NCBI GenBank assembly: GCA_018268755.1
Contig: JAFDVW010000009.1
Location: 186,001-250,000, forward strand
Direction: 5' to 3'
DNA length: 64,000 bases
Source of the DNA: Acidobacteriota bacterium
Lineage (GTDB): Bacteria; Acidobacteriota; Terriglobia; Terriglobales; Acidobacteriaceae
Shown: positions 1,077-31,147 of the stretch, piece by piece
Numbering within the stretch: the stretch's first letter is position 1
Layout of the letters: the number at the start of each line of letters is the position of its first letter
Position numbers and translations under genes: made by a program
Notes under the pieces: model-generated
The model's database searches: none
What the model was told of the DNA's origin: nothing
The model's input: only the letters and a program-made list of their open reading frames with translations

Positions 1077-2045
1077 ATGAAGACAACTCCGCGTACACGC
1101 CGTGATTTCTTGTGCCACTCCCTGGCAGGTCTGGTGGCCGGATGTACGCTGGGCGGAACCAACCCGGTGCTCGCCATGGCTTCGCAAGCCAAGTCCCCCT
1201 ATGTGGACTTTCCCACCGAGCCACGCGCCCGCCTCGCCATTTCCAGCTGGTCGTTTCGCGACTACATCAAGACTCCGCGTGACGGTAATAAAAGCAAGCA
1301 GGCTCCCGGCATGGGCCTTCCCGAATTTGCCGCCTGGGTCAAGCGTGAATTCAACGTACCCGGAGTGGAGCCCTGGAACTATCATTTCGCCTCGCTCGAC
1401 CAGCCCTACCTATCGGCCTTTCGTGAGTCCAATGAGAAAGCCGGCGTGCGCATCGTCAACATCGCGGTCGATAATGTCCACAGCTACTACGCCGCCGACC
1501 CCGCCGTGCGCCGCCAGGCCCTCGAGAACGGCAAGGCCTGGGTGGATGCCGCGCAAAAACTGAATGCGGTCAGCATACGGACTTCCATCGCCAAAGCCAA
1601 AAATGCACAGCCCGAAGTGGCCATCGTGGCCGCCCAACTCAAGGAACTCGCCGACTATGCCGCTGAGCGAAACGTCGTGGTAAATCTGGAAAACGACAAC
1701 TTAGTCAGTGAAGACGCATTTTTCCTGGCAAAAGTGATTGATAAAGTGGACCATCCCTTTCTTCACGCTCTGCCCGATTTCTGCAATTCCATGCAGACGC
1801 GCAATGAAAAGTTCAATTACGATGCCCTGACCCAGCTCTTTGCCCGCGCTTACAACATTTGTCACGTCAAACAGTTCGAAGGTACTCCGGACGGAAAAAC
1901 CGTCAGCATTGATCTGCCCAGGGTCTTCGCCATCCTGAAAGCCAGCCACTACAAGGGCTTCTTCTCGATGGAATGGGAGGGCGACGGTCCGCCCCACGAG
2001 GGCACGCGTCAACTGCTCAAGGCTTGCGAGGACAATCTGCGGTGA
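1077..2045 (+). CDS. Tat-exported sugar phosphate isomerase/epimerase-like TIM barrel protein
   Basis: This 322-residue protein belongs to the xylose-isomerase-like TIM-barrel family (sugar phosphate isomerase/epimerase). Its N-terminus has a twin-arginine motif (TRRDFL, residues 7-12), then a hydrophobic stretch and LVAGC with Cys23 as a possible lipobox, so it is probably exported folded and perhaps lipid anchored. Family metal ligands fit Glu205 (NLENDN), Asp234 (DFCNS), His263 (CHVKQFEG) and Glu299 (SMEWEG). It lies 51 bp after the cupin gene, and its stop overlaps the next start. A periplasmic location for this enzyme fits extracytoplasmic sugar processing. Exact isomerase or epimerase activity is unknown. 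Confidence 0.8.
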   Translation: MKTTPRTRRDFLCHSLAGLVAGCTLGGTNPVLAMASQAKSPYVDFPTEPRARLAISSWSFRDYIKTPRDGNKSKQAPGMGLPEFAAWVKREFNVPGVEPWNYHFASLDQPYLSAFRESNEKAGVRIVNIAVDNVHSYYAADPAVRRQALENGKAWVDAAQKLNAVSIRTSIAKAKNAQPEVAIVAAQLKELADYAAERNVVVNLENDNLVSEDAFFLAKVIDKVDHPFLHALPDFCNSMQTRNEKFNYDALTQLFARAYNICHVKQFEGTPDGKTVSIDLPRVFAILKASHYKGFFSMEWEGDGPPHEGTRQLLKACEDNLR

Positions 2046-2494
2046 GCGAGCCCAAGGCCAGCACATTTTCCGCAACCCTCCGCACTCGCTGGTTCTGGTG
2101 CTCGATCCTCACCATCCTGGGCTGGGCCGGCTGGGCCCTGCTGCTCAAAATTGGCTCCCTGGAAATTCCCAGTGAGCCGTCGCTTTTCGTGCAGACGGCC
2201 GGCATGGTCCCGTTGGCTGTGGTGCTGGTGTTTTCCCGATCGGTACGCGGCCCGCAGGACAAAAAGGGCATCGGCTATTCCCTGCTGAATGGCATTATCA
2301 CCGGGGTGGGGATTTTCTGTTTGCTGGCGGCCTACCGCAGCGGAGGCAATACCTCTGTGGTGGCGGTGACCACCGCCCTCTACCCGCTGGTGACTTTTGC
2401 TTTGGCAGTACCGCTGTTGAAGGAAAAACTGAATAAGTCGCAGATCGCCGGCTTAATTCTGGCAACCTTGTCGATTGTGATCTTTTCGCAGTAG
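2042..2494 (+). CDS. Half-size EamA/DMT-family transporter (first of a pair)
   Basis: A 150-residue membrane protein of the drug/metabolite transporter (EamA) type. It has about four to five hydrophobic helices, starting with FWCSILTILGWAGWALLL and ending with AGLILATLSIVIF. A full EamA transporter has ten helices, so this is a half unit. The GTG start at 2042 overlaps the upstream TGA as GTGA, indicating translational coupling with the isomerase gene. The following gene is a second half-size EamA protein, so the two probably act as a heterodimer. A metabolite (sugar or sugar-derived) is a reasonable substrate guess from context only. Confidence 0.75.
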   Translation: MSEPKASTFSATLRTRWFWCSILTILGWAGWALLLKIGSLEIPSEPSLFVQTAGMVPLAVVLVFSRSVRGPQDKKGIGYSLLNGIITGVGIFCLLAAYRSGGNTSVVAVTTALYPLVTFALAVPLLKEKLNKSQIAGLILATLSIVIFSQ

Positions 2495-2506
2495 GGATTG
2501 GCATCC

Positions 2507-2923
2507 ATGCATATTGCGGCCTGGCTCGGCTTCACCATCCTGGCGCTGATCTGTTTCGGCGTCGTCGGCCTCTTGCAAAAGCTCTCGACGGACCTGATCT
2601 CCGCCGAGTCCGCGCTTCTCTGGCTGATTGCCGGTTTTGTGCTACTCGAGCCTTTTGTCTATCCCGGGCGCTCCATCTTGCAATACTCCCCACGCAGCAT
2701 CGCCATCATCTTTGTGGCCGGTATTCTCAATGCATTGGGCAGCTGGGCCATCCTGGCGGCGATGAAAAGCGGCGGCAAAGCCTCCGTCGTGGTCCCGCTC
2801 ACCGCAATCTATCCCATGGTGGTGTGCGTACTGGGTCCCTTGCTCCTGCATGAGCACATTACTTCCAAACAAGGTGTTGGCATTGCCTTCGGTCTGGCGG
2901 CCATTTTTCTGCTGGCCAGATGA
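2507..2923 (+). CDS. Half-size EamA/DMT-family transporter (second of a pair)
   Basis: A 138-residue membrane protein with about four to five helices, resembling the second half of an EamA transporter. Features include ILNALGSWAILAAMKSGG and a C-terminal VGIAFGLAAIFLLAR. I prefer the ATG at 2507, preceded by AGGGA at about 9 bp, over the TTG at 2498. It follows the first half unit by 12 bp and its stop overlaps the next ORF's first ATG (ATGA). The two halves share the motif (R/K)SGGxxSVV, suggesting they arose from one duplicated unit. The likely function is heterodimeric transport of a small metabolite. The substrate is unknown. Confidence 0.75.
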   Translation: MHIAAWLGFTILALICFGVVGLLQKLSTDLISAESALLWLIAGFVLLEPFVYPGRSILQYSPRSIAIIFVAGILNALGSWAILAAMKSGGKASVVVPLTAIYPMVVCVLGPLLLHEHITSKQGVGIAFGLAAIFLLAR

Positions 2924-4086
2924 CTTACGATCCACCAGGAAAGGATTGCAGCCCGGGCATGACCAAGAACTCCAATCAACTCCCTCCGCCCGTCCGAATC
3001 GGCATCGTGGGATGTGGCAATGTCATGGATGGCGCCTACATGCCCCTGATCCAGCGCCTGCAAAGCAAGGGCGCCGTGCAGGTGGTGGGCGCTTCCCACA
3101 CCAGCCGTGAGCGCTGTCAGGCGGTGCTCGACAAGTGGGAGATCCCGCAGTACTTTTCCACCTACGAAGAACTCTGCCACTCGCCCGCCATCGATCTGGT
3201 CGTGGTTCTGACTTCCATGCCCTCGCATGCCGCCATTGCCCGGGAAGCGTTGCGCAGCGGCAAGCACGTGATGGTCGAGAAGCCGCTGGCGGTGAAGTTG
3301 GAAGATGCCCAGGAATTGCTTCGTCTGGCCCAGACCTCCGCGCAATATCTGGTGTGCGCTCCCTTCGTGACCCTGAGCCCCACCTTCCAGATCATGCGCG
3401 AGCGGGTCAATGCCGGAGACATTGGCAAAGTATGCCTGGCGCGAGCCCGCTATGGCTGGTCCGGCCCCGATTGGTCGGATTGGTTTTACCGCCCCGGCAG
3501 TGGGCCAATTTTCGACCTCGCCGTCTACACCATCACCACCCTCACCGGAATTCTGGGCCCCGTTCGCCGCGTCACTGCCATGATGGGGACGGCGCAGCCG
3601 GAGCGCGTCATTAACGGCAAGACCATCAAGGTGGAAATTGAAGACAACGCGCAAATCCTTCTGGATTTCGGCCGGGCCGTCTTTGCCGTGGTCACCTCCG
3701 GCTTCACCATCCAGAAATACCGCTCTCCGGCGGTGGAGCTTTACGGGACCCAAGGCACCATCCAGATGCTGGGCGACGACTGGGCCCCGGAAGGATACGA
3801 GCTCTGGCAGAACAGCGTAGGGGCCTGGCAAACTTACTATGAGACCGATCCCCACTGGCAATGGACCGAAGGCCTACGGCATCTGGTGGAGTGCATTCAC
3901 CGCGGCAAACGGCCGCTGGTCACGCCGGAACATGCCTATCATGTGCTGGAAATCATGTTGCGGGCGCAGACGGCCGGACGTACCGGACAGGCACAGGACA
4001 TCGAAAGCTCCTTCACCCTAACCAAAGTGGAACCGGCATCGGAAGCGGAAGCGGCGCACCGCGTGCACGACCGAAGAAGAGAGTAG
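2920..4086 (+). CDS. Gfo/Idh/MocA family oxidoreductase
   Basis: A 388-residue NAD(P)-dependent dehydrogenase of the Gfo/Idh/MocA family. The N-terminal Rossmann fold shows GIVGCGN (residues 28-34). The conserved EKP motif sits at residues 120-122 (MVEKPLAVK), with Lys121 the usual catalytic residue. The C-terminal alpha/beta domain follows. Such enzymes oxidise or reduce sugars, inositols and related polyols. There is no signal peptide, so it is cytoplasmic, unlike the exported isomerase two genes upstream. The start at 2920 overlaps the preceding stop. An ATG at 2959, 14 bp after AGGAAAGG, is an alternative that leaves the Rossmann fold intact. Confidence 0.85.
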   Translation: MTYDPPGKDCSPGMTKNSNQLPPPVRIGIVGCGNVMDGAYMPLIQRLQSKGAVQVVGASHTSRERCQAVLDKWEIPQYFSTYEELCHSPAIDLVVVLTSMPSHAAIAREALRSGKHVMVEKPLAVKLEDAQELLRLAQTSAQYLVCAPFVTLSPTFQIMRERVNAGDIGKVCLARARYGWSGPDWSDWFYRPGSGPIFDLAVYTITTLTGILGPVRRVTAMMGTAQPERVINGKTIKVEIEDNAQILLDFGRAVFAVVTSGFTIQKYRSPAVELYGTQGTIQMLGDDWAPEGYELWQNSVGAWQTYYETDPHWQWTEGLRHLVECIHRGKRPLVTPEHAYHVLEIMLRAQTAGRTGQAQDIESSFTLTKVEPASEAEAAHRVHDRRRE

Positions 4087-4089
4087 AGC

Positions 4090-5046
4090 ATGCCCGTGTC
4101 CTCACGATCAGAAGCGCCGATGGATCCTCTTCAAAGCGAAGCTTGCGCGATTGGCGTTGATCTGGGCGGGACCAAAATCGCCGCCGGGCTGGTGTCATTT
4201 CCCTCGGCCAAAATTCTCGTCAAGGAAATCATCCCCACGCTTCCCGCGCGCGGCGGCCAGGCCGTGCTCGAGGACACCATCGCCCTGGCGCAGCGTCTGA
4301 AAAGTCAGGCCGCAGCGTTCGGCCTTTCCGTCCTGGGCATCGGTCTCGGCATCGCTGAGCTGGTCAACCGCGAAGGCAAAATCACCAGCGAGTATCTTTT
4401 TAATTGGCGCTCCCTGCCCGCCCGGGAAGCCCTCTCTCAAGTCGCGCCCACTCTTTTCGAGTCGGATGCGCGCGCTCCCGCGGTCGCCGAGGCCCATTTC
4501 GGCAGCGGGAAGAGTTTCCAAAATTTCGTTTACGTCACGGTCGGCACCGGCATCAGTTACTGTCTGGTGCTGGACAAAAAACCTTATCTCGGGGCGCATG
4601 GCCACGCCATCATCCTGGCCAGCGGCGCGCTCACTTCGCGCTGCGAGCAATGCGGCGCGGTACAGCACCAGGTGCTCGAGGAGTTTGCCGCCGGACCTTC
4701 TCTGGTGCGCCGCTATGCCGAACACTCGGGACGCCCGGTCACCAGCGGCCAGGAAGTCACCGCGGCCGCCGCGGCCGGCGATGCCATTGCCACTGAAGTC
4801 GTGCGCTCTTCCGGAGAAGCCCTGGGAAACAGCCTCGGCTTTCTCATCAACGTGCTCGATCCGGAAGCGGTCGTGGTGGGAGGCGGGCTGGGGACAGCCA
4901 GCGGATTGTACTGGGACACCTTCGTCGCGGCCACGCGCCGGCACATCTGGTCGGAGGTTTCGAGAGATCTGCCCATCCTCAAAGCCGGACTCGGCCCCGA
5001 TGCCGGCTTGATCGGCGCTGCAGCCGTCGCCTGGAAGAATCTCTGA
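4090..5046 (+). CDS. Divergent ROK-family sugar kinase/regulator-like protein
   Basis: A 318-residue ROK-family protein. DLGGTK (residues 24-29) is the N-terminal phosphate-binding loop. ESDARAP around 124-130 replaces the usual ENDAN, but keeps the putative catalytic Asp126. TVGTGISY replaces the usual glycine-rich GTGVGGG. The family zinc motif (GH...CxCGxxGCxE) is degraded: Gly-His at 171-172 and CEQC at 185-188 remain, but the third Cys is missing. There is no DNA-binding domain, so a sugar kinase role is the default. Altered substrate or loss of activity is possible. An alternative ATG lies at 4120. It is the last gene of the plus-strand catabolic operon. Confidence 0.75.
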   Translation: MPVSSRSEAPMDPLQSEACAIGVDLGGTKIAAGLVSFPSAKILVKEIIPTLPARGGQAVLEDTIALAQRLKSQAAAFGLSVLGIGLGIAELVNREGKITSEYLFNWRSLPAREALSQVAPTLFESDARAPAVAEAHFGSGKSFQNFVYVTVGTGISYCLVLDKKPYLGAHGHAIILASGALTSRCEQCGAVQHQVLEEFAAGPSLVRRYAEHSGRPVTSGQEVTAAAAAGDAIATEVVRSSGEALGNSLGFLINVLDPEAVVVGGGLGTASGLYWDTFVAATRRHIWSEVSRDLPILKAGLGPDAGLIGAAAVAWKNL

Positions 5047-5097
5047 CTTCTCGATTTCCGCTAAAATCAACATCCCCGCCCTGCCGCAAAGAACGCG

Positions 5098-5122
5098 GTG
5101 AAAGACACTCAAATGTCTTCAC
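5098..5122. terminator. Weak hairpin between convergent operons
   Basis: GTGAA-A-GACA pairs with TGTC-TTCAC around a six-base loop, with a single bulged A, between the converging ROK and beta-propeller genes. A partly T-rich stretch follows on the plus strand. It overlaps the stop of the minus-strand gene. It could serve as a weak bidirectional terminator, but there is no solid U-tract. Confidence 0.35.
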
Positions 5123-6186
5123 TTCCCTTTCACCAGCTCCAGCTTGATGGGGTAAGTCTGGTTCGACCACCACTGCGGCACATACAGGGATCCCTGTGCG
5201 TCCACATAGACGTCGTGCGGATGGCGGAATGTATCGTTGTAGACTTCAATTGGTTGCAGCTTACCCTCGCGATAAACTGCCGGTTCTCCGCCCACCACGG
5301 AAACCACCCGGTCGGCGGCATCAAGAATCAGAATCATCCCATTCAGGCTGGCGATGGCAATGTAGTGTTCGTAACGGCCGCCGGCCAGTTTGGGAAACTG
5401 CGCCACGTTGCTGGGCCGGGCGCCGGGGACAGGGACGCTTCGCAGCAACTCCCCCGAAAAAGAAAACCACTTCAGCGTTTCATTTCCCCGGTCGCACACC
5501 AAAAGCGAGGGTTTACCCGAGCGTGTATCCATCCATACCGCGTGGGGCTCATTGAGATTTTCGGGCGCAGGCCCCACGCCGCCGAAACTCGCGATGTACT
5601 TCCCTTGCGGATCGAAGTGGTGCACGAAGCTTGAACCATAGCCGTCGCTGATAAAGAACTCTCCCTCAGAAGTAAAGGCGCAGTTCGTGGGATGGTATTG
5701 ATTGATATTAGGATATTTGGCCGCAACGGCATCCGGCCCGGTCCGGCGCACCAGGGTTCCATCACCGCGATGAACGGCAACGCACTGCAAATCGTGGTCG
5801 GTGATCCAATACAGATCTTCGCCTTGATGGTCCTGGATCTCCAGGCCATGCGCCGCGGGATAACGTGTCTCCCAGGCGGACAGAAGTTTTCCCTGCTTGT
5901 TATAGGCAATCAGATTGTTGTGCGTATCGTTGGTGAGCATCACGATGCGGCCATTTCGATCTTCGGTCATGCCATGGCAATCTTTGACCGGATAACGCGA
6001 GCGGTCGAGCACTCCCCAATGGCGGACGGCGCGATAGCGCAACTCACCCTGTCCCAGAATCTCTTCTTCACAGGCCCCGCTTGGCGTTTCCGCCAAGAGC
6101 GGCGCCCCGCCAGCCAGCACGCCTGCGCTACCCAGCACTGTGGCGCTCTTCAAAAGTGAACGGCGGGAAATATTCATCTTATTCAT
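5119..6186 (-). CDS. Tat-exported NHL/6-bladed beta-propeller-like protein
   Basis: A 355-residue exported protein that opens with a twin-arginine signal (ISRRSLLK, Arg8-Arg9) and a hydrophobic Ala/Gly-rich segment. The body has repeated blade-like units such as PHDVYVDAQGSLYVPQW and PHAVWMDTRSGKPSLLVCD, typical of NHL or 6-bladed propeller proteins. I chose the ATG at 6186 because AAGGGG lies 6 bp upstream. An ATG at 6177 is also possible. It is the last gene of the minus-strand PSD1-DUF1501-cytochrome operon, 58 bp after the cytochrome gene. Propellers of this type bind ligands or partners. No catalytic residue set is evident. Confidence 0.75.
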   Translation of the reverse strand: MNKMNISRRSLLKSATVLGSAGVLAGGAPLLAETPSGACEEEILGQGELRYRAVRHWGVLDRSRYPVKDCHGMTEDRNGRIVMLTNDTHNNLIAYNKQGKLLSAWETRYPAAHGLEIQDHQGEDLYWITDHDLQCVAVHRGDGTLVRRTGPDAVAAKYPNINQYHPTNCAFTSEGEFFISDGYGSSFVHHFDPQGKYIASFGGVGPAPENLNEPHAVWMDTRSGKPSLLVCDRGNETLKWFSFSGELLRSVPVPGARPSNVAQFPKLAGGRYEHYIAIASLNGMILILDAADRVVSVVGGEPAVYREGKLQPIEVYNDTFRHPHDVYVDAQGSLYVPQWWSNQTYPIKLELVKGK

Positions 6187-6244
6187 GCAAGCCCCTTTTG
6201 GCCTTTCCCAACTCTCGGTCTTTCTGAAACTGGAAACCTGAAGC

Positions 6245-7693
6245 TCAAAATATGAGTTTGTGCCCAAGTTCCTGCGGCACGGCGGAAGCCGGAGAAATCT
6301 TCGTGCTCCCCACATACACGCGTTTCAAGCTGGGCATCCGCGCCAGCGCCGCTAAAGCCGCGGGCGTCACCTGCGTGTCAAATAGACTGAGCGACTCCAA
6401 CTTCTGCAGCGAGGTCAGCGCCTGCACCGTCGCGTCCGTTGTGGAGGTATGCATCAGACGCAGCGTCCGCAGGTTCTTCATCCCGGCCATCGCGCTGGCG
6501 GAGTGGCCGGTAATGGCGGTGCTGGAAAAATCGGCCAGCACAATCCGCTCCGCCAGGGGCGCCAGCGCCGCGACCTGTTCGTCTCCAAAGCGGGCCCGCA
6601 TCCAGGCGGCCTGCACCGTGAGTTGCGCTGAACCGCGCGACTCGTAGCCGACGACATTCGGCAATTTTTGCTGGAGCTGCGCGACGGCGGATGCAAGCTG
6701 CGCCCGTTCCGCGCTGACCGCCGCGGGGCTTATCTCGAGAATGGTCACCTCAACCGGCGCCCCAGCCACCGGCGTCGGCGCTCCGCCCGGGTTGGGCTGG
6801 GTGGCCGACGCACCGCCCGCAATCCACTGCTCGATCACGGCTATTTCAGCGGGAGAAAGCGGCCGCCTGTTCTCAGGCGGCATGGCGTCCTCGTCCCCCG
6901 GCGGCAGCGTGATGCGGCGGAACAATTCGCTGCTTTTGGCGTCTCCGGGTTTGAGGACCGCCCCATGCTTCCCGCCGCGCATGAGCCCGGAAAAACTGTC
7001 CAGGCGAAGCCCGGCCTTCTGTTTGCTGGGCCCGTGGCAGGTTACACAGTGTTGCTCAAAGATGGGACGGAGCTGTGCCCCATACCATGTGCCGGCGTCT
7101 ACCGCGGAAGAAGAACCCGCGGCCTCCTTCCCCGGAACGCCCAGCCAGTTCCGCAGGGGAGACGGCAGAAGTTCGGTCAGATGGTTCTCGCCATGAGTCA
7201 ACTGGCCGCCACGATAGCCGGTGAATGACGCTGCCAGCACGGCCAAAGCCAGGGCCCCCAGATACAACCGCTCGCGGGCTGGATTTCGCCGCAGCACCCA
7301 GCACACCCACGACAGAGCTCCCACCGCCACCGCTCCCCACATGTGCTGTGTGATGGTGGTCCCCGCATAACCACCGGCGCGCGCCAGACACCAGCCCAGG
7401 CCGGCCGCCGCTATGGCCCCCACCAACGTGACGCCCAGCGTGAACCGCGCTGCAGCCTGGACATGGGAGAACTTCGGATTTCTTCCCGCGATCTCCAGTA
7501 GGGGAAGAAAGATGAGCAGCGCAATAGGCAGATGGACCGACAGCGGATGCAGCCGTCCCAACAATTCCAGGAATTGCGCGTGGTTGTTTCCGTCCGGCGG
7601 CGCCACCAACAGAAGGACGGCCAGCAATACCAGAGCAGCGCCGGTATAAACGGCAAAAAGAAGTTCCGCGGAATATTTTGCCCGGTCCTTCAT
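6245..7693 (-). CDS. Membrane-anchored c-type cytochrome domain protein with LRR-like tail
   Basis: A 482-residue protein with three parts. Residues 13-160 hold about five membrane helices of a DUF2231-like region, with His49 and His54 within the helical bundle. Residues 205-300 are a Planctomycete-type cytochrome c domain with CVTCH at 216-220 and a likely distal Met271 in DEDAMPPENRR. Residues 390-475 are leucine-rich repeats (NLRTLRLMHTSTTDAT and similar). It probably carries electrons at the cytoplasmic membrane with the heme in the periplasm. It lies 40 bp downstream of the DUF1501 gene in the same operon. The combination suggests an electron acceptor for the neighbouring exported enzymes, which is inference. 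Confidence 0.8.
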   Translation of the reverse strand: MKDRAKYSAELLFAVYTGAALVLLAVLLLVAPPDGNNHAQFLELLGRLHPLSVHLPIALLIFLPLLEIAGRNPKFSHVQAAARFTLGVTLVGAIAAAGLGWCLARAGGYAGTTITQHMWGAVAVGALSWVCWVLRRNPARERLYLGALALAVLAASFTGYRGGQLTHGENHLTELLPSPLRNWLGVPGKEAAGSSSAVDAGTWYGAQLRPIFEQHCVTCHGPSKQKAGLRLDSFSGLMRGGKHGAVLKPGDAKSSELFRRITLPPGDEDAMPPENRRPLSPAEIAVIEQWIAGGASATQPNPGGAPTPVAGAPVEVTILEISPAAVSAERAQLASAVAQLQQKLPNVVGYESRGSAQLTVQAAWMRARFGDEQVAALAPLAERIVLADFSSTAITGHSASAMAGMKNLRTLRLMHTSTTDATVQALTSLQKLESLSLFDTQVTPAALAALARMPSLKRVYVGSTKISPASAVPQELGHKLIF

Positions 7694-7733
7694 CCCGGAT
7701 GAGGCCCCCGGAAAGCGCCGGAAAAATCCGTCC

Positions 7734-9266
<1,533 letters not shown>

Positions 9267-28668: not shown

Positions 28669-29157
28669 TTAATTTCTTTCTGTCGCGTCCAACTCCACAT
28701 GCTCCACAGGAAGCGGGCCGTTCGATCCGGAGATATATTCCACGTGGTGCGGCCGGGCATCGATGGCTTTGTCGAGTTCCGACAGATAGAGACTGGAAAT
28801 GTGGACGCCGTCGACCATCACCATGGTCGTAGCGACCAGGTGTTTGGCCTGCTCGCGGATGAACTGCTCCAGCAGCCGCTTGGGGCCGAGGAGTTCCACG
28901 CAAACCGGCAACGTGCGCAGGGGCATTTCCGACGAGTCATAGGCGACGGACGTTCCATCCTTGCTGAATCCGATGTGCCCCAGATTGACCGCGGCGTGCA
29001 TGAGACCGGCTTCCAGCGCGGCGTTCACCAGATAATGGGATAGCGGTTTCTCGAACATCCGGTTCCACCAGCGCGCGGACTTTTTGTTGTCTCCCCGCTT
29101 CATATACACACGCAGAGCAGAAATGGTCGCGGAAACCGCATGAATTTGCTCACTCAC
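28669..29157 (-). CDS. DUF190 family protein, PII-like
   Basis: A 162-residue protein whose pattern matches DUF190, a PII-like family: LRVYMKRGDNKK at about residue 15, LVNAALEAGLMHAAVNLGHIGF, then PVCVELLGPKRLLEQFI and VMVDGVHI. DUF190 genes often sit beside fluoride exporters (CrcB, CLC-F), which is exactly the case here: the CLC gene ends 29 bp upstream, in the same direction. It is probably part of the fluoride response controlled by the riboswitch before the CLC gene. The biochemical role is not established. The extra 15 N-terminal residues are unusual for the family. Confidence 0.75.
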   Translation of the reverse strand: MSEQIHAVSATISALRVYMKRGDNKKSARWWNRMFEKPLSHYLVNAALEAGLMHAAVNLGHIGFSKDGTSVAYDSSEMPLRTLPVCVELLGPKRLLEQFIREQAKHLVATTMVMVDGVHISSLYLSELDKAIDARPHHVEYISGSNGPLPVEHVELDATERN

Positions 29158-29186: not shown

Positions 29187-30962
29187 TTAAGTTCTCTCTT
29201 TTTCCAGTCTTTCCAGCAAAGACCGGCCCTGCTTTTCCTCGGGGCGCAGAATCTCCTGAGCGCGGCTGCGGGCACGCAGGATATCGCTGACGGAAATCAT
29301 GCCGATCAGCTGGTCAGTGGCCTGATCGGTGACTGGCAAGTAGTCCTGCCCGCCCTTGGTGAGTTCCTTTTCCGCAAGGGCCATGGAATGCTCGGCACGG
29401 AGAGTGCGCACGCGAGGATCCATGATTTTCGCTACCGAGGTGCTGACCCATTGCGACTTTGGCACCGAACGCAGAGACCGCAGTTCGATCATGCCCAGGA
29501 ACCGGCCGTCCTGCGCCACCACCGGCAGCGCCTGGAAGGGATGCTCAAAGATGCTGCGCTCAGCGAATTGGGCCAGGTTGTGGTCAGGAAAGGCCACCAC
29601 AATTTTCGTGGTCATCCAATCGCGGCAGTAGAAGGAAGCGAGCAGGGCCTCGTCGGTGGTTCGTTTATGGCGTTGCGATTCCGAATTGGAGATCCCTGCC
29701 GAAACCAGAAAAGCTGCGCACGAAGCGATCAGCGAGGGCACCACCAGCGTCGCGCTTCCGGTGGCTTCCGCGACAAACACCGCGGAAAACAGCAGGCTGT
29801 TGTAGCTGGCCCCCGCGAAAGCGGCGATGCCGACCAGCGTAAACAGTCCCGGCTGACTGGGATGAAACATCAGATCACAAGCGGCCCCCAGAGCCGCCCC
29901 GATGGTCGCCGAAGGAACGAATAACCCGCCCACCCCGCCGCTGCCAAAGGTGAGCGCCGTGACCAGGAGCTTGGCGGCAAAGATGAAAAGACATACCCAG
30001 AGAACGTAGTGGCCATTGAGCAGCCGGTTGGCAATGGGAAGACCGGCCTGCAGAATGGCCGGCTCGTGAATCAGCTTAAGCGAAAGCAGCGCGACGGCAC
30101 TGACCAGGGCTCCCCCGAAGCTGGTCTTGATGATGCGTGGCGCGGGCCACAGCGCCCACATGCGCTTGAATTCTTTCAGCAGCAGCAGAAACAAATGCGA
30201 GGCCACGCCACCCAGCAACCCAACGGGCAGGCAAAGCAACAGATCGCGGATTTTCAGCTGATAGGCAAAATGAATCGGGAAATAGGAATTTGCCGGACGC
30301 AAAAATGCAAAAGTGGCGTAGCTGGTGGCGGAAGCTACCAAAGCATGGATCAGCGACTCATGCGCCAGGTCGTGTTTGTAAGGCGACTCCACCCCCATAA
30401 TGGCCCCGGTCAGGGGAGCGCGAAAGATAGCGGCGATTCCCGCCGACGCCCCGGCAATCATCGTGGTTTCCACCCGGCCATGCAGGGCCAGGAAACGCCG
30501 GGAACGGTTCAACCGGCTTTGCAGGAAGGAACAGATGGTCCCGCCCAGCCACTTGCTGGCCCCTTCCATTCCGGCGCTGGCGCCGAATCCCATGGTGGCG
30601 ACTGACGCCCCCAGCTTAGGCAAAGCATGGCGGTAGTTGATCCCGGTTTCGGGTCGATGATAGGCAAGGACCACTTCGTCCGCCATGGAAGAGGAAGCCA
30701 CGCGAAACAGAGAGAGGATCGCCCCCGTCAGGGCCATGCCGGCTATAGGAAGCAGCGACAGAAACAGAGGACTGAGGTGGGAAGAAAATGTATCCCAGAG
30801 CAGAGCGTTGACGACGTAGTCGTAGCCCGCAATCGCGGCCCCGACCAGAACTCCCAAAGGCGCGGCGACCAGGAACACATGCCGGGCCAAAGCCAGGTGC
30901 TCACTGAGTCTTCGCTGTAGAGGGGTGGGCCGGGGTGTACGGAACGCCTGAGAGACAGACAT
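29187..30962 (-). CDS. CLC-family channel/antiporter with two CBS domains, probable fluoride exporter
   Basis: A 591-residue CLC-family membrane protein. The gating-glutamate motif appears as GMEGA (Glu133) in place of the common GREGP, and GGLFVPSATIGAALG matches the GGxFxP helix. The usual GSGIP selectivity motif is not present in its expected place (near residues 90-97). A tandem CBS pair occupies about 450-575 (GMIELRSLRSVPKS, LIGMISVSDILRAR). Known bacterial fluoride-type CLCs usually lack CBS domains. A crcB-motif fluoride riboswitch lies directly upstream, so fluoride export is the best reading. A GAGGT ribosome-binding site is 5 bp before the ATG and can be masked by the riboswitch. 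Confidence 0.85.
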   Translation of the reverse strand: MSVSQAFRTPRPTPLQRRLSEHLALARHVFLVAAPLGVLVGAAIAGYDYVVNALLWDTFSSHLSPLFLSLLPIAGMALTGAILSLFRVASSSMADEVVLAYHRPETGINYRHALPKLGASVATMGFGASAGMEGASKWLGGTICSFLQSRLNRSRRFLALHGRVETTMIAGASAGIAAIFRAPLTGAIMGVESPYKHDLAHESLIHALVASATSYATFAFLRPANSYFPIHFAYQLKIRDLLLCLPVGLLGGVASHLFLLLLKEFKRMWALWPAPRIIKTSFGGALVSAVALLSLKLIHEPAILQAGLPIANRLLNGHYVLWVCLFIFAAKLLVTALTFGSGGVGGLFVPSATIGAALGAACDLMFHPSQPGLFTLVGIAAFAGASYNSLLFSAVFVAEATGSATLVVPSLIASCAAFLVSAGISNSESQRHKRTTDEALLASFYCRDWMTTKIVVAFPDHNLAQFAERSIFEHPFQALPVVAQDGRFLGMIELRSLRSVPKSQWVSTSVAKIMDPRVRTLRAEHSMALAEKELTKGGQDYLPVTDQATDQLIGMISVSDILRARSRAQEILRPEEKQGRSLLERLEKERT

Positions 30963-30995
30963 GATGACCTCAATGAAGAGTTAGTAGAGGTCATC
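30963..30995 (-). promoter_or_regulatory. SD-sequestering hairpin (riboswitch expression platform)
   Basis: GATGACCTC (30995-30987, the 3' strand of the aptamer) is the exact reverse complement of GAGGTCATC (30971-30963), which contains the Shine-Dalgarno GAGG and abuts the ATG at 30962. One more A-T pair extends into the start codon. Without ligand this 9-10 bp hairpin would hide the ribosome-binding site. In the bound aptamer ACCTC instead pairs with GAGGT upstream, freeing the SD. This makes a translational ON switch. Confidence 0.8.
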
Positions 30996-31043
30996 AGCAG
31001 CAAGCTATTGCTTGCGCGGTTAAGGGCGCACCTCATGCCCTTA
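30981..31043 (-). promoter_or_regulatory. Fluoride riboswitch (crcB motif)
   Basis: On the minus strand the segment holds AAGGGC-ATGAGGT-GC-GCCCTT (first stem and loop), then AACCGC, a perfect GCAAGC-AATA-GCTTGC hairpin, and GCTGATGACCTCTACT. Order, spacing and conserved runs match the crcB-motif fluoride aptamer, including the GAGGT/ACCTC pseudoknot pairing. It sits just upstream of a CLC gene, a known target class. Confidence 0.9.
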
Positions 31044-31147
31044 CTTCGGCTTTAAAAATAACACATCCCCCAAAGACATTGCTACCGTTTCGCTGGTGGC
31101 ATTGATCTTTCGATTGGCGCCGTTTGCGCACTGCTGTCAAACTGCCT

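Follow-up and report, generated by a model that had tools for sequence, protein, structure and literature searches.

Fluoride riboswitches that act on translation have been reported earlier (PMC8814607, PMC11077080). In such switches, for example that of Pseudomonas syringae eriC-F, the aptamer is built of P1, P3 and a pseudoknot, its 3' strand doubles in a downstream masking or terminator hairpin, and a gene for a fluoride exporter or a CLC protein follows. In the terminator versions the pseudoknot competes with hairpin P4 (PMC13273304), and the outcome is decided by the order of synthesis and by the pseudoknot locked by fluoride (PMC11077080, PMC13273304). The translational masking mechanism, which is also known from PMC13273304, has already been described for this riboswitch class and is less novel than the original prediction for our locus implied.

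Two groups of CLC proteins have to be considered as well. The CLC-F fluoride/proton antiporters (eriC-F; structure 6d0j) combine the CLC fold and the gating glutamate with control by a fluoride riboswitch. According to a review, they carry three signatures, GNNLI/GMGLI, GREGT/V and GEVTP (PMC11139923). The second group comprises canonical CLC chloride/proton antiporters and channels with CBS domains.

We analyzed a locus from the genome of a soil acidobacterium, located in a stretch of 64,000 nucleotides which we refer to as the window. It is highly probable that the leader studied here is a fluoride riboswitch which turns on translation of a two-gene unit, composed of a CLC gene and a DUF190-like gene. 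The leader shares the architecture of translational switches, but it pairs GAGGU with ACCUC instead of GGAGU with ACUCC, and its arm is in register 0, with pairing that runs back over GAUGA, whereas it runs forward over CUAC in the known switches. As in the terminator versions, the pseudoknot strand is exchanged with a downstream hairpin; here, however, the hairpin contains the Shine-Dalgarno (SD) sequence and flanks the start codon, rather than forming a terminator with a U-run. The window switch is a clean natural case of three-way sequence exchange between a loop, a shared strand and an SD arm. With its shifted arm register it is one more member of the known kind of switch, and the finding that reaches further is a putatively fluoride-controlled CLC lineage which fails every CLC-F signature.

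Fluoride aptamer and masking arm in the leader of the CLC gene

We searched the minus strand of the window using cmscan and obtained a match to the fluoride (crcB) riboswitch model RF01734 at positions 30978-31049 (34.6 bits, E = 7.9e-6). The match spans the full model (1-64), and its score is marginal, exceeding the gathering score of 34 bits by just 0.6 bit. The score is low because the Rfam model does not score pseudoknot pairs, so that a compensated double change loses points. In the covariance search of the whole genome (5.36 Mb) the E value of this riboswitch was 1.6e-7, and no second match was found. The original prediction had placed a crcB-motif aptamer in the CLC leader and proposed the search with RF01734 as a check; the match over threshold confirms it, and the predicted coordinates (30963-31043) were right to within a few bases.

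Read along the transcript, AAGGGC-AUGAGGUGC-GCCCUU corresponds to P1 (predicted helix of the 5' strand AAGGGC, 31037-31042, and the 3' strand GCCCTT, 31022-31027) and is followed by AACC. The middle part, GC-GCAAGC-AAUA-GCUUGC-U-GC and then U, contains P3 (predicted helix of the 5' strand GCGCAAGC, 31010-31017, and the 3' strand GCTTGCTGC with one bulged T, 30997-31005). The 3' part consists of GAUGACCUC, a 15-nt loop, GAGGUCAUC and AUG. The conserved AACCG and GCUGAUGAC segments of RF01734 were present in the cmscan alignment as UUAACCGC and GCUGAUGAC, respectively. The pseudoknot is composed of GAGGT in the P1 loop (31034-31030) and ACCTC (30991-30987), with 5/5 pairs.

The ACCTC strand is contained in the 3' strand of the aptamer, GATGACCTC (30987-30995). 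The putative masking arm, GAGGTCATC (30963-30971, minus strand), is the exact reverse complement of this strand and abuts the ATG at 30962. These two segments form a hairpin of nine exact pairs with a loop of 15 nt and a predicted energy of -14.9 kcal/mol. The SD sequence GAGG (30971-30968) lies 5 nt from the ATG and is fully paired in the unconstrained fold. The prediction of a perfect complement which holds the SD and abuts the start codon was therefore correct (9/9 pairs). Such an arm is rare in shuffled sequences: the chance of a complement of at least 9 nt to the 3' strand was approximately 0.12% (20,000 dinucleotide shuffles of the 60 nt downstream), and an equally good stem score was obtained in 6 of 5000 shuffles. 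Further, among the 31 GAGG-N4-8-ATG contexts of the window, a 9-nt match was observed at the CLC leader only, and the remaining contexts gave 4-7 nt. There was no U-run after the window hairpin: ATGTCTGTC comes next, and the last base of the arm directly precedes the start codon. An intrinsic terminator at this hairpin was considered and rejected, since none was detected downstream of it.

Pseudoknot and expression platforms in related leaders

We compared the window with a set of 155 distinct leaders, mostly from Acidobacteriaceae, for which the aptamer coordinates were taken from the covariance search. In this family a fluoride riboswitch over the cut-off was found in 116/150 genomes. The pseudoknot paired fully in approximately 122 of the 152 leaders with a readable P1 loop, and natural double changes were present among them (GAAGU:ACUUC, GGUGU:ACACC, GGUGC:GCACC, GGGGU:GCUCC). 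The pair of the window, GAGGU:ACCUC in place of the usual GGAGU:ACUCC, is carried independently by one more leader (L124), and in the window the SD arm is altered to match. The change in the window pseudoknot is compensatory relative to the consensus, and the pseudoknot covaries across leaders. The P1 loop of the window has one extra nucleotide (9 nt), a feature of 16/152 leaders, the window included.

Further, we sorted the leaders by rule according to the segment that follows the aptamer. In 74/155 leaders the SD was part of an arm complementary to the 3' strand of the aptamer, a U-run followed the stem in 18/155, and 63/155 had neither. When compared with shuffles, 37 of the 74 SD arms reached the 5% level, and the remainder were short AGGAG matches; about half of the arms are no better than shuffles because CUCC of the aptamer is itself similar to an anti-SD. 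With SD arms in 74/155 leaders, translational ON control is ordinary in the sampled group. All other SD-arm leaders have a paired segment that begins at one of positions 3-8 of GAUGACNNCUAC, and the window alone among the 74 begins at position 0 and extends back over GAUGA. The window genome is the single genome of its genus, with no close relative offering covariation for this register. Among relatives of the window CLC, the SD-arm platform was found in L010, L012, L022 and L023, and a U-run following the hairpin in L007 and L009.

A separate class of leaders (L146, L148, L165, L166, L168, L174 and L179) has an arm GGAGUCAU which pairs with AUGACUCC, with no adjoining start codon or U-run. 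In several of them a gene similar to Na+/H+ antiporters starts further downstream.

CLC protein encoded downstream

The gene that follows the leader (29187-30962, minus strand) encodes a CLC-family transporter of 591 aa (P0001). As had been predicted, it contains CBS domains: we identified PF00654 (203 bits) and two C-terminal CBS stretches (PF00571, 54 bits). The original prediction overlooked what we regard as the more unusual point, namely that the sequence of this CLC does not conform to the CLC-F type. The motifs of P0001 are SSSMADE, GMEGASKW and GGVGGLFVPSATIG, and the window protein and its relatives have S(S/A)MADE, GMEGASKW and GGVGGLFVPSATIG in common. The selectivity motif GNNLI/GMGLI is absent from P0001, where SSSMADE is found. 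GREGT/V is absent as well; its place is taken by GMEGA, both in the window and in all clade rows that cover the site, except for the disrupted frame of L013. In place of GEVTP, the window has GLFVP, with GFFVP, GLYVP and GLFIP as clade variants. As a control, we used 12 riboswitch-driven CLC-F proteins from the same bacterial family. All of them had GREGT and GEVTP, while GNNLI was present in 10 and GNNLL in 2.

The tree separated the window clade, with 24 rows (support 100/100), from two other groups, namely CLC-F with 12 rows (100/100) and the canonical CLCs with 17 (76/40). As the first stems of the window clade and of CLC-F are both very long, how deep the two split is uncertain. Membership of P0001 in CLC-F was rejected, since the three signatures are absent and CLC-F is monophyletic without P0001. 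The two CBS domains and the DUF190 partner gene set P0001 further apart from CLC-F. One clade member, L013 (2224-2700, from a MAG), has a CLC frame which breaks after 158 aa, with the riboswitch and DUF190 present; it is either a disrupted gene or an assembly error.

P0001 resembles canonical CLCs in the layout of CLC and CBS domains and in the GxFxP-type motif GLFVP, but it has SSMAD where they have GSGIP and GMEGA where they have GREGP, in addition to the fluoride riboswitch upstream. The gating glutamate is retained (E133 in GMEG), and Ser193 is aligned to Glu203 of CLC-ec1. The position of the chloride-binding Ser107 corresponds to Ser92 in canonical alignments and to Ala94 in the CLC-F alignment; the helix modelled to start at residue 94 favours Ser92 as the equivalent. 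Met93-Ala94-Asp95 is invariant, with Asp95 at the place of P110 of canonical CLCs. Profile alignment gave E = 2.8e-55 with canonical CLCs versus 6.6e-20 with CLC-F, and the CBS domains help the canonical score. The AlphaFold model of P0001 (pLDDT 85.7) matched CLC structures with Z of 37-44. The top match was the CLC-F antiporter 6d0j (Z = 43.7, 2.8 A), followed by CLC-ec1 (Z = 42.0), a gap which is too small for assigning function.

Association of the riboswitch with CBS domains and DUF190

The second gene of the unit (28669-29157, minus strand, 162 aa) starts 29 nt downstream of the CLC gene. Its product is a divergent member of PF02641, over the cut-off (26.3 bits, cut-off 23.4). A DUF190-like gene followed the CLC gene in the window and in L006-L010, L012, L013, L017 and L020, and in none of the CBS-less loci; most of the CBS-containing members have such a neighbour. 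A riboswitch over the cut-off was present upstream in 12/12 clade members containing CBS domains vs 0/12 of those without them. CBS domains were found by Pfam in 12/23 aligned members, which were matched to the 12 riboswitch-bearing ones by length and single scans. In L017 the riboswitch is located approximately 0.9 kb upstream of the CLC gene. In nine loci of CBS-less homologues, extending the search down to E = 1 brought up no sub-threshold riboswitch upstream. At least four changes of the riboswitch/CBS label are needed on the tree, and the association is therefore not one inherited block, in a sample which is small and consists mostly of MAGs. Genome searches revealed further clade members in 2/300 genomes of the family, 1/396 genomes of the phylum and 4/195 genomes around L017, so the clade is sparse. 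Horizontal spread via plasmids was considered and rejected, as no plasmid match was obtained.

In seven genomes (that of the window, L010, L011, L017, L020, L022 and L023) the sole fluoride riboswitch is located before or near the CLC gene. In related genomes, CLC-F genes sit behind the same class of riboswitch. The window genome also encodes CrcB, without a riboswitch, and CrcB was found in 77/149 genomes of the phylum (52%). Among ten genomes with a CBS-less homologue, 9/10 were without a fluoride riboswitch and 9/10 without CrcB. Both the fluoride riboswitch and CrcB are lacking from nine genomes with a CBS-less CLC (L014, L015, L016, L019, L024, L026, L027, L028 and L030), in which this CLC may take the place of CrcB.

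In L007, a Deltaproteobacteria MAG, the CLC unit adjoins riboswitch-HAD-CrcB-DUF190-enolase. This fluoride island (1278-7743) contains on one strand an MFS-like gene, a riboswitch, CLC, DUF190 and a second riboswitch, which is followed by a HAD-like gene, CrcB, a second DUF190 (with a P-II match too) and enolase. The genomes of L006 and L008 (Acidicapsa dinghuensis) have 13 and 14 fluoride riboswitch matches, respectively, mostly clustered on few contigs.

Possible function of the CLC protein

We think that the window CLC probably exports fluoride, as a member of a lineage distinct from that of the known CLC-F antiporters. With the window clade there would then be two CLC lineages under riboswitch control, the second one probably a fluoride exporter too. 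More tentatively, and with somewhat less than even confidence, we propose that the SMADE/GMEGA/GLFVP clade evolved fluoride export independently and that CBS domains, perhaps as sensors of nucleotides, act together with a DUF190/PII-like partner to tune its riboswitch-controlled members, with riboswitch, CBS and partner gained and lost together.

The main alternative, which is rather doubtful but which we take seriously, accepts a genuine fluoride switch and makes the CLC a chloride/proton transporter which fluoride stress induces as an aid to balancing acid or ions. The missing CLC-F signatures, the canonical-looking GGLFVP, the alignment of Ser92 with Ser107 in canonical alignments, the better (CBS-aided) profile score with canonical CLCs and the presence of CrcB in the window genome are all in its favour, and Na+/H+ antiporters are likewise controlled by riboswitches (PMC11139923). 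However, the place next to the sole fluoride riboswitch, which the CLC gene occupies in seven genomes, is most often held by exporters, and an ordinary CLC behind a fluoride riboswitch was not found in the sample. The motifs differ from canonical CLCs too (P110 to invariant Asp95, GREGP to GMEGA), and the best structural match is CLC-F 6d0j, with a small lead.

The CLC gene is more important than the switch, as rules based on the three signatures (PMC11139923) would miss this lineage or call it a chloride channel. If the protein does export fluoride, selectivity for fluoride evolved repeatedly among CLC proteins, or was reached in a different way, and the association of CBS and DUF190 would point to regulation at the protein level, for which we found no description for fluoride export in the literature searched. 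A search for literature linking DUF190 with fluoride returned unrelated papers only.

Proposed mechanism of switching

Without fluoride, GAUGACCUC of the unfolded aptamer would pair with GAGGUCAUC and bury the SD beside the start codon. With fluoride (Mg-fluoride cluster), ACCUC would be locked to GAGGU of the P1 loop; the pseudoknot, once formed, would prevent the masking hairpin and give the ribosome access. P1 and P3 would be kept in both states, and the competition would be limited to pseudoknot and mask. Both structures use ACCUC, so that fluoride can be bound or the SD masked, but not both at once, as the original prediction had argued and as the sequence supports. We infer that the window RNA binds fluoride and that translation changes with it. 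The SD-masking ON arrangement that had been predicted gains support from the 9-bp arm with GAGG, the shared ACCUC, the absent U-run and the fit with the other leaders.

In the unconstrained fold, P1, P3 and the masking hairpin coexisted, and all bases from the SD through the last base of the arm were paired. When the pseudoknot strands were held unpaired in a 240-nt fold, the SD was partly freed (unpaired probability 0.02-0.64), in a computation which cannot represent the pseudoknot itself. With -5.4 kcal/mol, calculated as a duplex, the 5-bp pseudoknot is far weaker than the mask (-14.9 kcal/mol), and switching would therefore have to rely on cotranscriptional order and stabilization by fluoride.

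This imbalance, together with the RF01734 score barely above the cut-off and the extra nucleotide in the P1 loop, could also mean that the aptamer is decayed, that switching is lost and that the strong hairpin keeps translation of the CLC low and constitutive. We consider this quite improbable. P1 is fully complementary, the pseudoknot changes are paired and matched in the arm, the 9-nt loop occurs in 15 further leaders, and GAGGU:ACCUC also occurs in L124; three mutually matched segments are unlikely to survive decay. Equally improbable is transcriptional rather than translational control (Rho-dependent or premature termination at the hairpin): L007 and L009, upstream of the same gene, build a U-run terminator from the same aptamer strand and untranslated mRNA may become exposed to Rho, but in the window ATGTCTGTC follows the hairpin without a U-run and the arm finishes at the start codon.

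Upstream of the window leader we found no consensus match to a sigma-70 promoter. Between the upstream gene and the aptamer there is a hairpin, TGCTACCGTTTCGCTGGTGGCA (31080-31101), which is terminator-like on the plus strand.
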